This document shows positions 10,141 to 58,915 of a stretch of DNA of 64,000 nt, piece after piece (within the stretch, counting starts at the first letter, position 1; each line of letters begins with the position of its first letter). The translations under genes and the position numbers were made by a program. The notes under the pieces are model-generated. The model did no database searches. It was given only the letters and a program-made list of their open reading frames with translations, and was not told the origin of the DNA. This DNA comes from Methanomicrobiales archaeon HGW-Methanomicrobiales-1 (GTDB lineage: Archaea; Halobacteriota; Methanomicrobia; Methanomicrobiales; Methanospirillaceae), in assembly GCA_002839675.1 (NCBI GenBank), contig PGYM01000001.1:736-64735 (forward strand). The letters run 5' to 3'.

Positions 10141-11112
10141 ATGAAACAACAGTATCTGATGCTCGTTATTCTGGGAATAGCGGCAATCGCCTGTCTCTCG
10201 CCGGTATCCGCTGACGAAATCGGCGGCGACCAGGGATGGTACGCAATCCACTGCAATGTGTACGGGGCGAATATCTATCTCGATGACAAATTTGTCGGGA
10301 CTGCGCCGCAGGGCGCCCTGACGGTAGCAGTGCCCATAACCGGCACACCCTATACAACGCTCCGCGTCCAGAAAACTGGATACGCGACTTTTGTCGATTC
10401 CATAACTAAAGTTCCTGTCAAGGGCGAGAGCGTTGATCTCTACGCAACCTTAAACGAGTTGCCCACGACCACCGCAGCTGCCGTTGGCGGGGACGTAGGA
10501 TGGTATATTATCCATAGCAATGTCGACGGCGCAACGGTGTTGCTCGATGAGACGAACAAAGGCGTGGTCTCACAGGGCGTGGTCTACGTCCCGGTCTATT
10601 CAACCGCTAGCGTGTACCATACCTTTACCGTAAAGAAGGATGGCTACACTTCCTATAAGGGGAATATCGACCGTATGCCGATGAAAGGGGAGAGCGTTGA
10701 TCTCTATGCAACAATCAACCCGGTTCCCACTCCTACGGCAACACCCACGAGTATCGGGGGAGATATCGGGTGGTACAATGTTCACTCTAATGTTGACGGG
10801 GCCACAGTCTCCTTCGACAACGATGTCAAGGGTACTATTGCCAAGGGAACGCTCAGTGTCAAGGTGTTTGTTACCGGCACTCCCTACCGGGCATTTACCG
10901 TCTATAAATCCGGATATATCCCCTATACCGGCTCCATTGAACTATACCCGGCAAAAGGACAGACCGTTGACCTGTATGCAACCCTGAATGCGGAGCCGGA
11001 AACAATGACTCCCGTTCCCACCACAAAAGCTCCGTTATCCCCATCAGTCGCCTTAATCGCGCTCATCATGGGAGGAGTATGTGTCGGGATGTTTGCAAGA
11101 ATCCGGAAATAA
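10141..11112 (+). CDS. Secreted triple-PEGA-domain surface protein
   Basis: 323 residues. A signal peptide (about 1-24, ending SPVSA) is followed by three tandem repeats of about 80 residues. Each opens with GGD-x-GWY, contains VxGA near a D-x3-KG turn, and closes with KGxxVDLYATLN. These are PEGA-type beta domains, common in extracellular methanogen proteins. Thr/Pro linkers separate the repeats. A C-terminal helix (about 300-319) and a basic tail RIRK anchor the protein. It probably contributes to the cell surface; a specific ligand cannot be read from the sequence. Confidence 0.85.
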   Translation: MKQQYLMLVILGIAAIACLSPVSADEIGGDQGWYAIHCNVYGANIYLDDKFVGTAPQGALTVAVPITGTPYTTLRVQKTGYATFVDSITKVPVKGESVDLYATLNELPTTTAAAVGGDVGWYIIHSNVDGATVLLDETNKGVVSQGVVYVPVYSTASVYHTFTVKKDGYTSYKGNIDRMPMKGESVDLYATINPVPTPTATPTSIGGDIGWYNVHSNVDGATVSFDNDVKGTIAKGTLSVKVFVTGTPYRAFTVYKSGYIPYTGSIELYPAKGQTVDLYATLNAEPETMTPVPTTKAPLSPSVALIALIMGGVCVGMFARIRK

Positions 11113-26544: not shown

Positions 26545-27150
26545 AAATTGGGGGGAGGTACCCTGTCTAAACTTTGAGAGGGGGTACCCCACCCCCCACT
26601 CCAAACCAAGAGGGGGGGACCCCCTCCCCCCCTGTCGTACGAAAGACAGGCACCCACCCCCCTCCGGTTGCATGCCCTAGCCCACGGCTTCCAGTGGAGT
26701 CACGACTGAAACTCCATTTCATCACGCGAATGAGAAGGGGGGGGTGGGAGCCTGTCCAAAAAGGGAGGTGGGTATACCCACCCCCTCTCTAAAAAATGAG
26801 TGGGGGTACCCTACCCCCCTCTCCAAAATAAGAGGGGGGGACCCCTTCCCCCCCTGTCCTGCGTAAGACAGGCTCCCACCCCCCCTTTGCCGCAGGGACC
26901 CGGGCAGTGGTTCGCGTGGAGGTTCAGACGGCGGGGTGTGGTTTGGGGAGTCGCAGTCCGGAGGGGGGGATACCCCCTCTCTTTGCCCGGACAGGGTACC
27001 ACCCCCTCCCCCTCTCCAAAAAATGAGTGGGGGTAACCCACCCCCCTGTCTAAAATAAGAGGGGGGGATACCTGCCTGCCCTACCCCCTCTCCAAAATAA
27101 GAGGAGGGGACCCCCTCCCCCCACTCTAGGGAAAGACAGGGTACCCCCCC
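26545..27150. repeat. Low-complexity C/G-run repeat array, no gene
   Basis: The 26219-27306 gap (about 1.1 kb) holds no credible gene. Within it, diverged units of about 45-50 bp recur: AAAATAAGAGGGGGGGA followed by CCCC runs at about 26601, 26823, 27050 and 27092; AATGAGTGGGGGTA at about 26795 and 27022; and small hairpins CCTGTC...GACAGG at 26632-26650 and 26853-26872. Runs of six to eight G or C on either strand could form G-quadruplex or i-motif structures. Frames across it are repeat artefacts. Confidence 0.75.
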
Positions 27151-27199
27151 ATTTGCACGAACCTGCCCACCGCATAATAATCATAAAACCGGTGTGCGG
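27151..27199 (+). repeat. Right flanking direct repeat of the C/G-run array
   Basis: ATTTGCACGAACCTGCC, ACCGCATAATA and AAAACCGGTGTGCGG correspond in order and strand to 26309-26355. It sits directly against the last C run of the array. The 100 bases beyond it hold an imperfect palindrome (CCGGTGTGCGG..CATG and CATGCGGTTACCGG). Confidence 0.65.
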
Positions 27200-36525: not shown

Positions 36526-37608
36526 TCAGGTTGAATCCGATCGCACGTGGATTGCAGTTGCTTTGACGCTTGCCACAACGGTCATGCCTGCTTTAAGTCC
36601 GAGTTCTCCGCAGGACCGCGTAGTGATAAGGGCTGTGATGGGCGTTCCGCATTCTACGGTTACCCGGATGAATGGCCCGAGGGATACCAGTTTTGTTATT
36701 GTCCCGATAAGACGGTTGCGGACGCTGGTTTTTTGAATTCCGTCAGGTATCGAGATAGTCACTTCCTCGGGCCTGATGTAGAGTGCAACCCGTTTTCCCG
36801 GTGGGCAGGGGGTGATCGCTTCGAAGCTGGCATGATCGAGCATTACGGTGGCATGCCCATTTTCATTGGTCTGCACCACTCCTTTTAAGATGGTATCGAT
36901 ACCGACAAACCGGGCAACCTCCTTTCCCTCCGGCTGGTAGAAGATCTCATGGAGCGAGCCAACCTGGGCAAGGCACCCGTTCATGATCACTCCCATGCGG
37001 TGGGCAAGGCGCTGGCCCTGGATCATGTCATGCGTGGAAAAGAGGATGGTCGTGTGCATCCGGCTGTTGATTTTTACCAGCAAATCCTCGATCAACTCTG
37101 TTGAGACCGGGTCGAGGTTTGCGGTGGGCTCATCCAGCAGCAGCACTTCCGGCTCGGTGACCATTGCCCGGGCTATCGCCACGCGCTGCATCTCGCCACC
37201 GGAAAGGGTGACTGCCCTGCGCTCTTCAAAGCCCGGGAGCCCGACGAGTTCAAGTGCCGATCTCACCCGTTGTGCGATCTGCGCCGTATCCGTGCCGCGG
37301 AACTTGAGGCCGAATGCCACATTTTCTGCAACCGTGGTGTTGAGTGCTGCGGATTTCTGGAAGACCATGCCCATGCGTCGCCGGAGGGCGAGCCGGACCG
37401 GCTCGGGGCCGTCAGTATCCTGCCCGTCAAAAAAGATCTTCCCGGTGGTCGGCCGGTCAAGCAGGTCGATCAGCCGCAGCAGGGTTGTCTTGCCGCTGCC
37501 GGAGGGACCGATGAGCGTAAAGATCTCACCGCGCCGGATCTCCAGGTTGATATCGTCAAGAATTTTCCTGCCGCCAGCCTGCCGGGAAAGACCGGATATC
37601 CTGATCAT
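36526..37608 (-). CDS. tupC: Tungstate/molybdate ABC transporter ATPase with TOBE domain
   Basis: 360 residues. Walker A is GPSGSGKTT, the signature LSGGEMQRVAIARA, Walker B LLLDEPTANLD, and the switch His is in STHD. The C-terminal part (about 240-360) carries TOBE-like oxyanion-sensing segments (NRLIGTITKLVSLGPFIRVTVE). It overlaps the permease stop by ATGA. It energises uptake of tungstate or a similar oxyanion. Assignment to the Tup group rests on the linked permease. Confidence 0.88.
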   Translation of the reverse strand: MIRISGLSRQAGGRKILDDINLEIRRGEIFTLIGPSGSGKTTLLRLIDLLDRPTTGKIFFDGQDTDGPEPVRLALRRRMGMVFQKSAALNTTVAENVAFGLKFRGTDTAQIAQRVRSALELVGLPGFEERRAVTLSGGEMQRVAIARAMVTEPEVLLLDEPTANLDPVSTELIEDLLVKINSRMHTTILFSTHDMIQGQRLAHRMGVIMNGCLAQVGSLHEIFYQPEGKEVARFVGIDTILKGVVQTNENGHATVMLDHASFEAITPCPPGKRVALYIRPEEVTISIPDGIQKTSVRNRLIGTITKLVSLGPFIRVTVECGTPITALITTRSCGELGLKAGMTVVASVKATAIHVRSDST

Positions 37609-38333
37609 GTGGGGGGGCCTCCCTGCACTATTATCTGTTCAGATGACAGGCCGGTGGTGATGATATTCATGGCAACGACAATGACGAGTGCAATAATAAG
37701 GAGGATAATGCCGAGTGCGATAGAGAACCCAAAGTCTCCCATGCCCGTCTGGAGGGCGATTGCGGTTGTCAGTACCCGGGTGTGACCGGCAATGTTTCCC
37801 CCAATCATCATCGCAACCCCGACTTCCGAGATCGCTCTCCCGAATGCAAGGATCACCGCGCTGAGGATTGCCAGCCGGGCTTCCTTTACGATCTGGATAA
37901 TGCTCTGGAACTCGGTTGCGCCAAGGGATATCAGCGTGTCGCTGATGTTCTGGTCAACCCCGCTGAGGGCAGAGATCACCAGGCCGGTGGTGATGGGGAT
38001 GATCAGTACCATCTGCCCGAGGATCATTCCTTCCGGGGTAAACAGCAGGCTGAAAAACCCGAGCGGGCCGCTTTTCGAGAGCAGGAGATACAAGAGAAGG
38101 CCGACAACTACGGTCGGGACTGAATAGAGTGTCTGGATAATTACTTTGAGCGTTCGTTTGCCACGGAATTCACGGAAATGGATCAGTCCCCCGAGGGGTA
38201 TGGATATACATGCGGCAAGGATTGTTGCTGCAAGGGAAATGTACACGGAGAGGGCTGCGATCTGCAGGACATCCGGATTAAGCGTGATAATCAGATTGAA
38301 TGCCTGCATGATTCCTGAAACGATATCGTTCAT
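37605..38333 (-). CDS. tupB: Tungstate-type ABC transporter permease
   Basis: About 242 residues from the ATG at 38333, preceded by GGTGAT; a GTG at 38342 is also in frame. Five or six membrane helices. The EAA loop reads SLGATEFQSIIQIVKEARLAI, and the following AFGRAISEVGVAMMIGGNI is characteristic of TupB-type permeases. It overlaps tupC by ATGA. No gene for a TupA-type binding protein is next to it in the window, an unusual absence. Confidence 0.9.
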   Translation of the reverse strand: MNDIVSGIMQAFNLIITLNPDVLQIAALSVYISLAATILAACISIPLGGLIHFREFRGKRTLKVIIQTLYSVPTVVVGLLLYLLLSKSGPLGFFSLLFTPEGMILGQMVLIIPITTGLVISALSGVDQNISDTLISLGATEFQSIIQIVKEARLAILSAVILAFGRAISEVGVAMMIGGNIAGHTRVLTTAIALQTGMGDFGFSIALGIILLIIALVIVVAMNIITTGLSSEQIIVQGGPPT

Positions 38334-38342
38334 CCGTATCAC

Positions 38343-38812
38343 CGTTTTTTAGAAAATAGTGGGCGAGGAGCAGTAATAAGTCGTTCTAAAAAAAGTGCTG
38401 TGGTTAACCGTTTCTTATTTATTTCTGGCGTGTGCACGGGTCGCTCAGGGTAATGAATTGAAAAGGACAATGCCGGAGGGATCCGGGATACCCTAAATCA
38501 AGGCTTTCGCGGGCACCGTTTCTAAAAACCCGTTCCGGAAAAGCCCGTAAAATGCTCCTTTTCAACCCCTGCGAAAAACAAGCCAGATATTTGCCCCGAT
38601 TACCAAAATACGGGCGGAAACGCCCTCACCTGGTGGCCGCCAAAGCCCCTTAAATCGAGGCTTTTTTCGCAACGTAGTTTACTCAATCCGAGCTCCGGAA
38701 AACCTGCTGAAACGCGAATACATAGATCTTTTTTCCAGAAAGGGATCCTTCCGCAAAGAGTGACATTATCTGCATAATTAAAAAGCTGTATTAATGAAAA
38801 GACGGAAAGTAA
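38343..38812. other. Gene-free region upstream of tupB
   Basis: About 470 bases without a gene. Bases 38343-38490 hold the tupB promoter region, including GGTTAACC at 38402-38409 and an AT-rich stretch. Bases 38493-38725 hold a dispersed repeat (listed separately). Bases 38770-38812 are AT-rich and contain the promoter of the small zinc-protein pair (TAATTAAAAAGC near 38775). Confidence 0.5.
38493..38725 (-). repeat. Dispersed intergenic element, copy 1
   Basis: On the minus strand, 38629-38532 aligns without gaps to 57609-57706 on the plus strand: I count 85 of 98 identical. Similarity extends further on both sides, to roughly 38725 and 38493. Inside it, GCGAAA..GCCT..GATTTA occurs at about 38670-38650 and again at about 38510-38493, so the element carries a repeated end. 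It lies upstream of tupB in the same sense. In one frame the conserved blocks read like EGVSARILVIGA, but stops interrupt it. Confidence 0.75.
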
Positions 38813-38818
38813 ATGATC

Positions 38819-38989
38819 ATGGCGGAAAAACAGAAGTGCGAATACTGTGGCAAGGATGCGATCGGATTACAGTCATTAGAGGGCGCTTTTGCCTATGTCT
38901 GCAAGGATCATGCTGACAGTCTCCTTCTTGCCCTCAAACCCGGTGAGAAAAAAGTTTACGGCGTTTGCGTTCTCGAACGGTACAGCTGA
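38819..38989 (+). CDS. Tiny zinc-binding protein, tandem copy 1
   Basis: 56 residues from the ATG at 38819; an ATG at 38813 is also in frame. CEYCGKDAIG and YVCKDHAD give a C-x2-C ... C-x2-H zinc site. It is a close paralogue of the next gene, sharing KDAIG, HADSLLLALKPGEK and VYG. The stop TGA shares its last base with the next ATG (TGATG), so the two are translated together. Function unknown. Confidence 0.75.
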   Translation: MAEKQKCEYCGKDAIGLQSLEGAFAYVCKDHADSLLLALKPGEKKVYGVCVLERYS

Positions 38990-39171
38990 TGACGGAAAAA
39001 CAAAAGTGCGAGCACTGTGAGAAGGATGCAATCGGGATCCAGTCATTCGGGTGCTGTGTTGCCTACGTCTGCCTGGACCATGCCGACAATCTCCTTCTCG
39101 CACTCAAGCCCGGCGAAAAGCAGGTGTATGGCGAATGTTACTTCGAACGATTCAATACAGCCGCACACTAG
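38989..39171 (+). CDS. Tiny zinc-binding protein, tandem copy 2
   Basis: 60 residues from the ATG at 38989. CEHCEKDAIG and YVCLDHAD repeat the zinc-ligand pattern of copy 1, and HADNLLLALKPGEK and VYGECYFERF continue the match. This second copy adds two Cys (GCCVAY). The pair clearly arose by tandem duplication. Such small proteins are common near metal-linked genes, but the role is open. Confidence 0.75.
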   Translation: MTEKQKCEHCEKDAIGIQSFGCCVAYVCLDHADNLLLALKPGEKQVYGECYFERFNTAAH

Positions 39172-39421
39172 TCGTACCTTAAAACGATGACAGATCCAGC
39201 TTCCCCCGGGGCTGCAGATGTGCCGGCCCCGTCATCACTATTTTCCTGAATAATTCTATTCCGGCCCTGCACCGGTTACGTGATCCGTATTCCGTGAGCG
39301 ATACTGCAACAGAAACTATCCTGCAATCGTTCCACGGGAAAACCTCTGCCACTATCGTTGTAGCATATCCACTCCCGAGGGGGATGTCAGTCGGTCAAGC
39401 GGCAAAAAAAGATTGATTGGT

Positions 39422-57448: not shown

Positions 57449-57519
57449 AGGCCGGGAATCATTCCCTTTCCCGGTTTCCATTTTTTTAATTATCGTCGTT
57501 AAAAAAAATATCCATCCTA

Positions 57520-57745
57520 TGCCTGTTCCGGGGGCATCCAAGAGGCCCGGATTAGGTAACATAGATTGCCGCTTTTGCCTCAATTTCCGGGCCCTTGGCA
57601 GCCATCCAGTGAGGGCGTTTCCGCTCGTATTTTGGTTATCGGGGCGACATTCGGGCTTATTTTTTGAATGGGTTAAAAAGGAGCGTTTTACGGGCTTTTC
57701 CGGAACCGGTTTTGGGAAAACGGGGCCCGCAAATGGCTTATTTTT
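57520..57745 (+). repeat. Dispersed intergenic element, copy 2
   Basis: The 57449-57853 gap (about 400 bases) has no gene I can support; most of it is this element. Its core 57609-57706 matches 38629-38532 (minus strand), 85 of 98 by hand. Two blocks are strongest: 57609-57645 (35/37) and 57678-57706 (28/29). A small hairpin GGGCG..CGCTC in the first block keeps pairing in copy 1 (CGCCC). An open frame of about 108 codons crosses it, but copy 1 has stops in that frame. Confidence 0.75.
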
Positions 57746-57853: not shown

Positions 57854-58915
57854 TCAGCGGGGAGTAACCGGGATCACATGCACGGCCGATGCCTTGAACG
57901 TTGCATAAACCCTGCTTCCGGATTCAAGATGCAATTCGCGGCAGCTCTCCCGGGTGAGAAGTGCCGTGAGCGGGAACCCGGCATCAAGGATAACCCGGAC
58001 CGTACTCCCAAAGGGGATAATCTCTGAAACAATTCCCTGGAGGCAGTTGCGGGCACTGGAATCAAATGGTTCCTGCGAGAGGATCACATCCTCCGCATGC
58101 AGGGTGGCAACCACATCTCCAGAAATGCCGGAGGCTGCATAGAATACGGGGCCATTGCCGGAAGTGATCCGGACAATATTCCCGTATTGGGACGAATTCC
58201 CCCGAATAATGTTGCCGATACCCAGGAACTCTGCAACAAAGGCATCGGCAGGATGTAAGAAGATCTCCGAAGTCTCTCCTGCCTGGACGATCCGCCCCTC
58301 CCGCATAATCGCGATCCGGTCGGCAAGCGCAAAGACATCATCGAAATGATGGGTGATCTGGATGATAGTAGTCCCGGTTAGCTTCCGAAGCCGGGAAAGT
58401 TCCCTGCGCATCCTCTCCCTTGTTTGCCCATCGAGTGCGCTCATCGGTTCATCGAGCAGCAGGATCTCGGGCTTCAGAACAAGTGCCCGGGCAAGAGCAA
58501 CCCGCTGCTGCTCACCCCCGCTGAGTGTTCCCGGGTACCTTACGGTCAGGTGCCCGATCTCTAACAGGGTGCACATATCTTTTACGATAGCATGCTGCTC
58601 GTCCAGGGGAATTTTTTTCTGGCGCAATCCAAACGCGATATTGTCCTCGACCGTGAGATGGGGAAAGAGCATGTAGTCCTGGTACACCATCCCGATATTC
58701 CGCGAGCGCGGTTCTGTTAAGGTGATCTCCCGGTCGCCAAGAAATATCCTGCCGGAATCCGGCGTATGGATGCCGGCAATAGTCTCCAGAAGAACTGTTT
58801 TTCCCGCACCGGTCGGACCGAGAATGATGAAATATTCCCCGTGCTGTATCTCAAGCGACACGTCCCGTACCGAGAATTCACCCAGGCTGGTGGAAAGGGA
58901 TTCAATGCGCAGCAC
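57854..58915 (-). CDS. wtpC: Molybdate/tungstate ABC transporter ATPase with TOBE
   Basis: 353 residues from a GTG at 58915. Walker A is GPTGAGKT, signature LSGGEQQRVALARA, Walker B LLLDEPMSALD, His in ITHH. The C-terminal 120 residues are TOBE-like (NCLQGIVSEIIPFGSTVRVILD), the oxyanion-sensing part. It is the last gene of the modA2-trmO-like-permease-ATPase operon. Mod and Wtp types cannot be told apart safely from the ATPase alone. Confidence 0.9.
   Translation of the reverse strand: MLRIESLSTSLGEFSVRDVSLEIQHGEYFIILGPTGAGKTVLLETIAGIHTPDSGRIFLGDREITLTEPRSRNIGMVYQDYMLFPHLTVEDNIAFGLRQKKIPLDEQHAIVKDMCTLLEIGHLTVRYPGTLSGGEQQRVALARALVLKPEILLLDEPMSALDGQTRERMRRELSRLRKLTGTTIIQITHHFDDVFALADRIAIMREGRIVQAGETSEIFLHPADAFVAEFLGIGNIIRGNSSQYGNIVRITSGNGPVFYAASGISGDVVATLHAEDVILSQEPFDSSARNCLQGIVSEIIPFGSTVRVILDAGFPLTALLTRESCRELHLESGSRVYATFKASAVHVIPVTPR

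Follow-up and report, generated by a model that had tools for sequence, protein, structure and literature searches.

The window, the whole 64,000-nt stretch of DNA analysed here, contains two copies of a dispersed element in its short form of ~240 bp, copy 1 at 38495..38734 on the + strand (nhmmer E=4.7e-57; E=9.9e-53 at G000:C1:39230-39469 in a search with the R1 profile described below) and copy 2 at 57504..57745 on the - strand (nhmmer E=2.1e-47; R1 profile E=4.9e-48 at G000:C1:58238-58481). The inverted pair of similar stretches that a sequence-only reading of this DNA had picked out is real, the profile-placed cores lying close to where that reading had drawn them. The copies are identical at 71% of aligned positions (172/241), their inverted match covers 143 nt at 83%, and copy 2, used as a query against its own genome, recovers copy 1 at E=3e-39, far above chance. 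An ABC transporter permease (BPD_transp_1; Pfam PF00528) at 37605..38342 on the - strand has its 5' end towards copy 1, 153 bp away, and the 3' end of an ABC ATPase with a TOBE domain (Pfam PF00005 + PF03459) at 57854..58915 on the - strand lies ~108 bp upstream of copy 2 in the orientation of the element. By Pfam annotation both copies adjoin TOBE-type ABC transporter operons, where Mo/W transporter genes had been noticed from the letters, but this is no general tie to Mo/W transporters, TOBE proteins being only 3 of the 112 proteins that neighbour copies of the family. Two adjacent short Cys-rich reading frames, mutually similar and read from the sequence (CEYCGKDAIGLQS... and CEHCEKDAIGIQS...), are located at 38818..39172 on the + strand and are apparently a tandem duplication. 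By blastn blocks, DNA homologous to them comes after the element in G006 and G008, and G022 has it too; in G001 an empty-site alignment showed both the element and the Cys-rich frames to be missing. Two other sets of repeats were observed in the window, namely four C-rich repeats of ~79 nt at 26555-27158 (spacings 76-227 bp, 62-86% alike; CTCCAAAATAAGAGGGGGGGACCCC...) and a 57-nt unit present three times at 10420-11010 (spacings 264 and 270 bp), which probably belongs to a repeat-domain protein.

The genome of the window (G000) comprises 2.47 Mb in 5 contigs, and the copy-2 query identified nine further places in it at E<=5e-7 in addition to copy 1. An initial search of relatives, covering 40 genomes including the own genome (24 congeneric, 16 of other genera), gave matches in nine, all of the same genus. 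With a sequence-only profile of 245 positions built from 31 copies (R1), 17 copies were placed in the own genome at E<=5e-23, and of the 39 genomes of the genus 37 had matches. Copy number among congeners ranges from none detected or one up to ~50, the highest count being 51 in G011, where some matches are partial and weak. Some 30 weaker matches in G011 are limited to parts of the profile, positions 24-242 or 51-190 in many cases, which would fit the expansion of a second, diverged subfamily in this genome. An order-wide search of 199 genomes yielded 34 with matches, all in one family (8/38 genera), and none outside the methanogen family that contains Methanoregula. Seven other genera of this family hold sporadic copies, some of which (G196, G060, G116) score as high as those of the own genome while sister genomes have none, a patchy presence that suggests horizontal transfer. 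The sole IMG/VR pattern match was attributed to chance and a viral copy was discarded. That the dispersed family is real is near certain. It is previously unnamed, and a search of openly accessible papers for repeats in Methanoregula and Methanomicrobiales turned up no such family; small dispersed mobile repeats are already known as a kind.

Once oriented and aligned, the copies show a single well-defined core with conserved blocks in fixed order, which begins AAAATAAGCCC and finishes in a T-run. The repeated words from which a tandem unit of ~158 bp had been proposed do occur within copy 1 (TCCGGAAAA at a spacing of 160 and AGGCTTT at a spacing of 157), but copy 2 has AAAAATAAGCC at a spacing of 81 instead, and such a unit is not a feature of the family. 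Tandems of whole elements exist elsewhere, e.g. at G008:C4 19308/19765 and G006:C14 374324/374615, and three same-strand elements at G041:C55 49591, 53617 and 57644 are spaced by 4026 and 4027 bp, which suggests, as judged from the spacing, a tandem 4-kb duplication. The core spans 242-245 or 252-255 bp; full-length copies measure mostly 239-245 or 249-255 bp, and the difference in length is a single block of 10-11 or 21-22 letters. Compared with the consensus, 107 copies carry 6434 substitutions and 73 indel events, of which 36 fall at one column. In orthologous DNA of G018 and G021 the elements differ by 111 substitutions and 0 indels and other intergenic DNA by 128 and 11, with substitution rates of 11.5% and 7.8%, respectively, so that the elements vary faster than their surroundings, yet not in length. 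Single copies display an A/T period of 11.2 bp (power 10.9, compared with ~1.2 for both shuffles and flanks). That phased A/T tracts might bend the DNA intrinsically was considered and rejected, as a wedge-model calculation gave no excess curvature in the elements; the claim is therefore limited to the rhythm. The near-constant length, the A/T rhythm and the 10-11 bp variant together suggest that the element is recognised as DNA by a protein complex.

Both a decayed or very short coding repeat and a small RNA gene had been proposed from the window copies. The reading frame seen in these two copies is locally real; family-wide, however, stop codons interrupt all six frames (1.2-3.4 stops per copy in each), no codon-position conservation signal was detected across the family copies and the 10-11 bp length variant would break any frame, and the protein-coding repeat was dropped. 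An Rfam search of the window returned only a tRNA and 5S rRNA, leaving the element unmatched. The covariance check of the alignment, which had been put forward as a means of recognising an RNA, revealed no compensatory changes on either strand (RNAalifold on 31 sequences: 6 pairs on one strand, 3 on the other, 0 compensatory changes), and a mutual-information scan of 107 copies identified no helix. Among strongly covarying positions, the only two that resemble a base pair lie 7 bases apart and switch locally from C-G to G-C, and no conserved hairpin pair was found beyond GCCC..GGGC. With structured RNA discarded on these grounds as well, there is no support for a gene or for a structured RNA.

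A non-autonomous mobile element, also among the earlier proposals, is the best-supported of them, given the dispersed copies, the near-identical copies in unrelated flanks and the range of 0 to ~50 copies per congener. Near-identical cores in unrelated flanks were found in G023 (98%), G018 (95%) and G021 (92%) and between G013 and G000 (86%), which indicates that the element is either mobile or homogenised between sites; gene conversion rather than transposition could have produced such cores. Similarity between close core pairs ends at or near the core ends, the left edge lying, by subfamily, at the core start or at -18 or -45 bp and the right edge shortly past the T-run. Of 90 copies, 35 have their closest relative within their own genome, compared with a shuffled mean of 7.2. 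The two copies of a G040 pair are near-identical in the 5' part and far less alike in the 3' part, a pattern that conversion of one copy by another, or recombination between the two, would leave. Terminal inverted repeats were not detected (longest inverted word between the first and last 45 bp, 5.7 vs 5.0 in shuffles), and a CGTCGGA echo in the flanks was rejected as such a repeat, being too weak and present in a minority of copies. Nor was a target-site duplication detected (shared direct word 6.11 vs 6.10 with swapped flanks), and the profile searches showed no split-end copies around a gene, as an autonomous relative with the same ends would have. Two candidate empty sites were set aside, as the element is missing from G001 together with ~0.9 kb and the position of G021 216908 is occupied by other DNA in G018; consequently, no exact insertion point was obtained.

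With reading frames used as proxies for genes, the copies are intergenic. The preceding gene runs towards the element in 71 of 104 cases (71:33), and 40 convergent surroundings were counted against 17 divergent ones. The neighbouring proteins are diverse and include sensor kinases, FrhB/FdhB, TOBE ABC proteins, phosphate transporters, mcrA and FmdE. Neighbouring elements 3-50 kb apart have the same orientation in 46 of 58 pairs, those beyond 50 kb in 14 of 27. Replication-strand polarity was considered and rejected, since orientation was not seen to flip at the main Orc1/Cdc6 locus of G018, G021 or G053 and same-orientation runs fade past 50 kb. Some copies occupy an orthologous place across species, e.g. 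in G053, G021 and G018, where a phosphate transporter lies on one side and the same small protein on the other; these copies are old, and their retention is unlike that of a purely selfish element.

Comparison of close genomes revealed synteny switches at or beside several elements, and many copies lie inside or beside accessory DNA. In G018, DNA matching G021 2818103-2821115 is followed by an element and then by DNA matching G021 from 224259 onward; near the far end of this segment there is another element, preceded by DNA matching G021 241000-247553, and 5 kb past it the sequence returns to G021 2821178. A segment of ~23 kb bounded by direct elements is thus present at 0.22-0.25 Mb in G021 and at the locus of another element in G018, i.e. 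with direct elements at both ends in both genomes and in different places. The locus of copy 1 has one element in G000, two in tandem in G008, none in G001 and two direct elements ~14 kb apart in G006. Part of the G006 insert matches G000 at 71.1-75.0 kb, which lies between direct elements at 68.7k and 76.0k, and the homologous DNA in G008:C43 also lies between direct elements. The junction elements have 59-85% identity to either presumed parent and are not clean hybrids, some accessory blocks have an element at one side only, and no integrase was identified in the gene blocks looked at, for which selected neighbourhoods were annotated. Four small genes (167, 54, 154 and ~190 aa) were also observed to form a multi-copy module, at L155:13752-15576 (-) and L160:5071-6855 (-) among other places; it is repeated across the genus and found in another genus as well (L186). 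Its proteins have no match in Pfam, PHROGs or NCBIfam, and an attempt to identify one of them through its fold gave no meaningful PDB match. Out of 129 elements, eleven come after the final gene of the module at a distance of 58-118 bp (mostly 58-84), and one such case is from a different genus (G196, locus L187). Where DNA is visible beyond a module end, 9 of 23 ends lack an element.

Small dispersed intergenic repeats of bacteria such as ERIC have been reviewed as MITE-like (PMC10969869), and the element resembles them in being short, non-coding, intergenic, multi-copy, taxon-restricted and variable in copy number. It differs from ERIC (127 bp) in being about twice as long, in having neither a terminal nor a central palindrome, in its archaeal host and in its strict length with a 10-11 bp step, and has no known sequence relation to it. 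MITEs are on record in 3' untranslated locations and, among archaea, in Sulfolobus, Halobacterium and Haloquadratum (PMC10969869); the element resembles them in being archaeal, small, mobile and non-autonomous as well as non-coding, multi-copy and mostly intergenic, but it has no terminal inverted repeats or target duplications, and no parent insertion sequence was found. With integron attC sites, which occur in archaea too (PMC9668308), it shares an oriented intergenic location, often downstream of a gene, and strain-variable segments between direct copies; unlike them it has no paired-arm folding, its segments are 5-25 kb long and hold whole operons, and the attC boxes RYYYAAC and GTTRRRY are both present in 0 of 96 copies. 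Without inverted ends, target duplications or attC boxes, the element does not qualify as a MITE or as an integron site, and no known transposase is associated with it. REP units are short palindromes; the unit of the element is far longer, with no conserved hairpin beyond GCCC..GGGC. What it has in common with REP/REPIN sequences, which are found with RAYT transposases (PMC3116915), is that all are dispersed extragenic non-autonomous repeats.

Taken together, we consider the element, with moderate confidence, to be a non-autonomous mobile DNA repeat whose copies form one family and which, within the genomes searched, is restricted to the methanogens of the family containing Methanoregula. Its 245/255-bp core would be recognised as double-stranded DNA by a putative protein complex, perhaps a recombinase or transposase and possibly with an architectural protein, which would account for spacing being kept while letters drift and for the only common length change being about one helical turn. 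Elements would be copied to new intergenic sites and one copy may be converted by another, which would account for copies that are mosaic and for orthologous copies that diverge unusually far. As many related copies of like orientation sit a few kb apart, accessory gene blocks may be exchanged at junctions that the elements either provide or simply mark. Much of this pattern would also be expected of a host DNA element, i.e. a long site bound by protein that serves in chromosome organisation, in segregation or at the ends of transcripts and that is kept at many loci by selection and homogenised by conversion: the strict length of a drifting sequence, the 11.2-bp rhythm with its one-turn length variant, the location downstream of genes, the retention at orthologous sites and the co-orientation that holds at 3-50 kb and is lost beyond 50 kb. 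A copy number that varies among congeners from none detected or one to ~50, the patchy occurrence in other genera and the frequent location within or next to accessory DNA argue against such a role, which we regard as possible but doubtful.

It is unlikely that the elements are active, long double-stranded recombination sites of a new archaeal cassette system, in which a putative recombinase would, much as in an integron, excise host operons of 5-25 kb bounded by direct copies from one element and insert them at another. The ~23 kb segment with direct elements at both ends at different loci in G021 and G018, the ~14 kb between direct elements in G006 where G000 has one element, the related module DNA between direct elements in G000 and G008:C43 and the usual position behind the preceding gene are what such a system would produce; the lack of clean hybrids among the junction elements, the missing attC boxes, the failure to identify an integrase in the blocks annotated and the accessory blocks with an element on a single side are not. 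That the elements are small RNA genes, with the T-run at the + end as an archaeal terminator, appears improbable after the Rfam, folding and covariation results, even though the T-run is sharp and lies near the 3' edge of between-copy similarity and GCCC..GGGC is found near the opposite end of the element. Hardly credible is the notion that the element is the trailing end of the four-gene module and that lone copies are remnants, as most elements have no module and many visible module ends have no element, despite the eleven elements that follow its last gene.

For the favoured reading as a mobile repeat family, the combination of near-constant length, drifting sequence, helical rhythm and absence of terminal repeats is atypical of the usual small mobile repeats. 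The link between elements and moved gene blocks is testable with existing genomes and, if causal, would partly explain how these methanogens trade metal-transport and energy genes.
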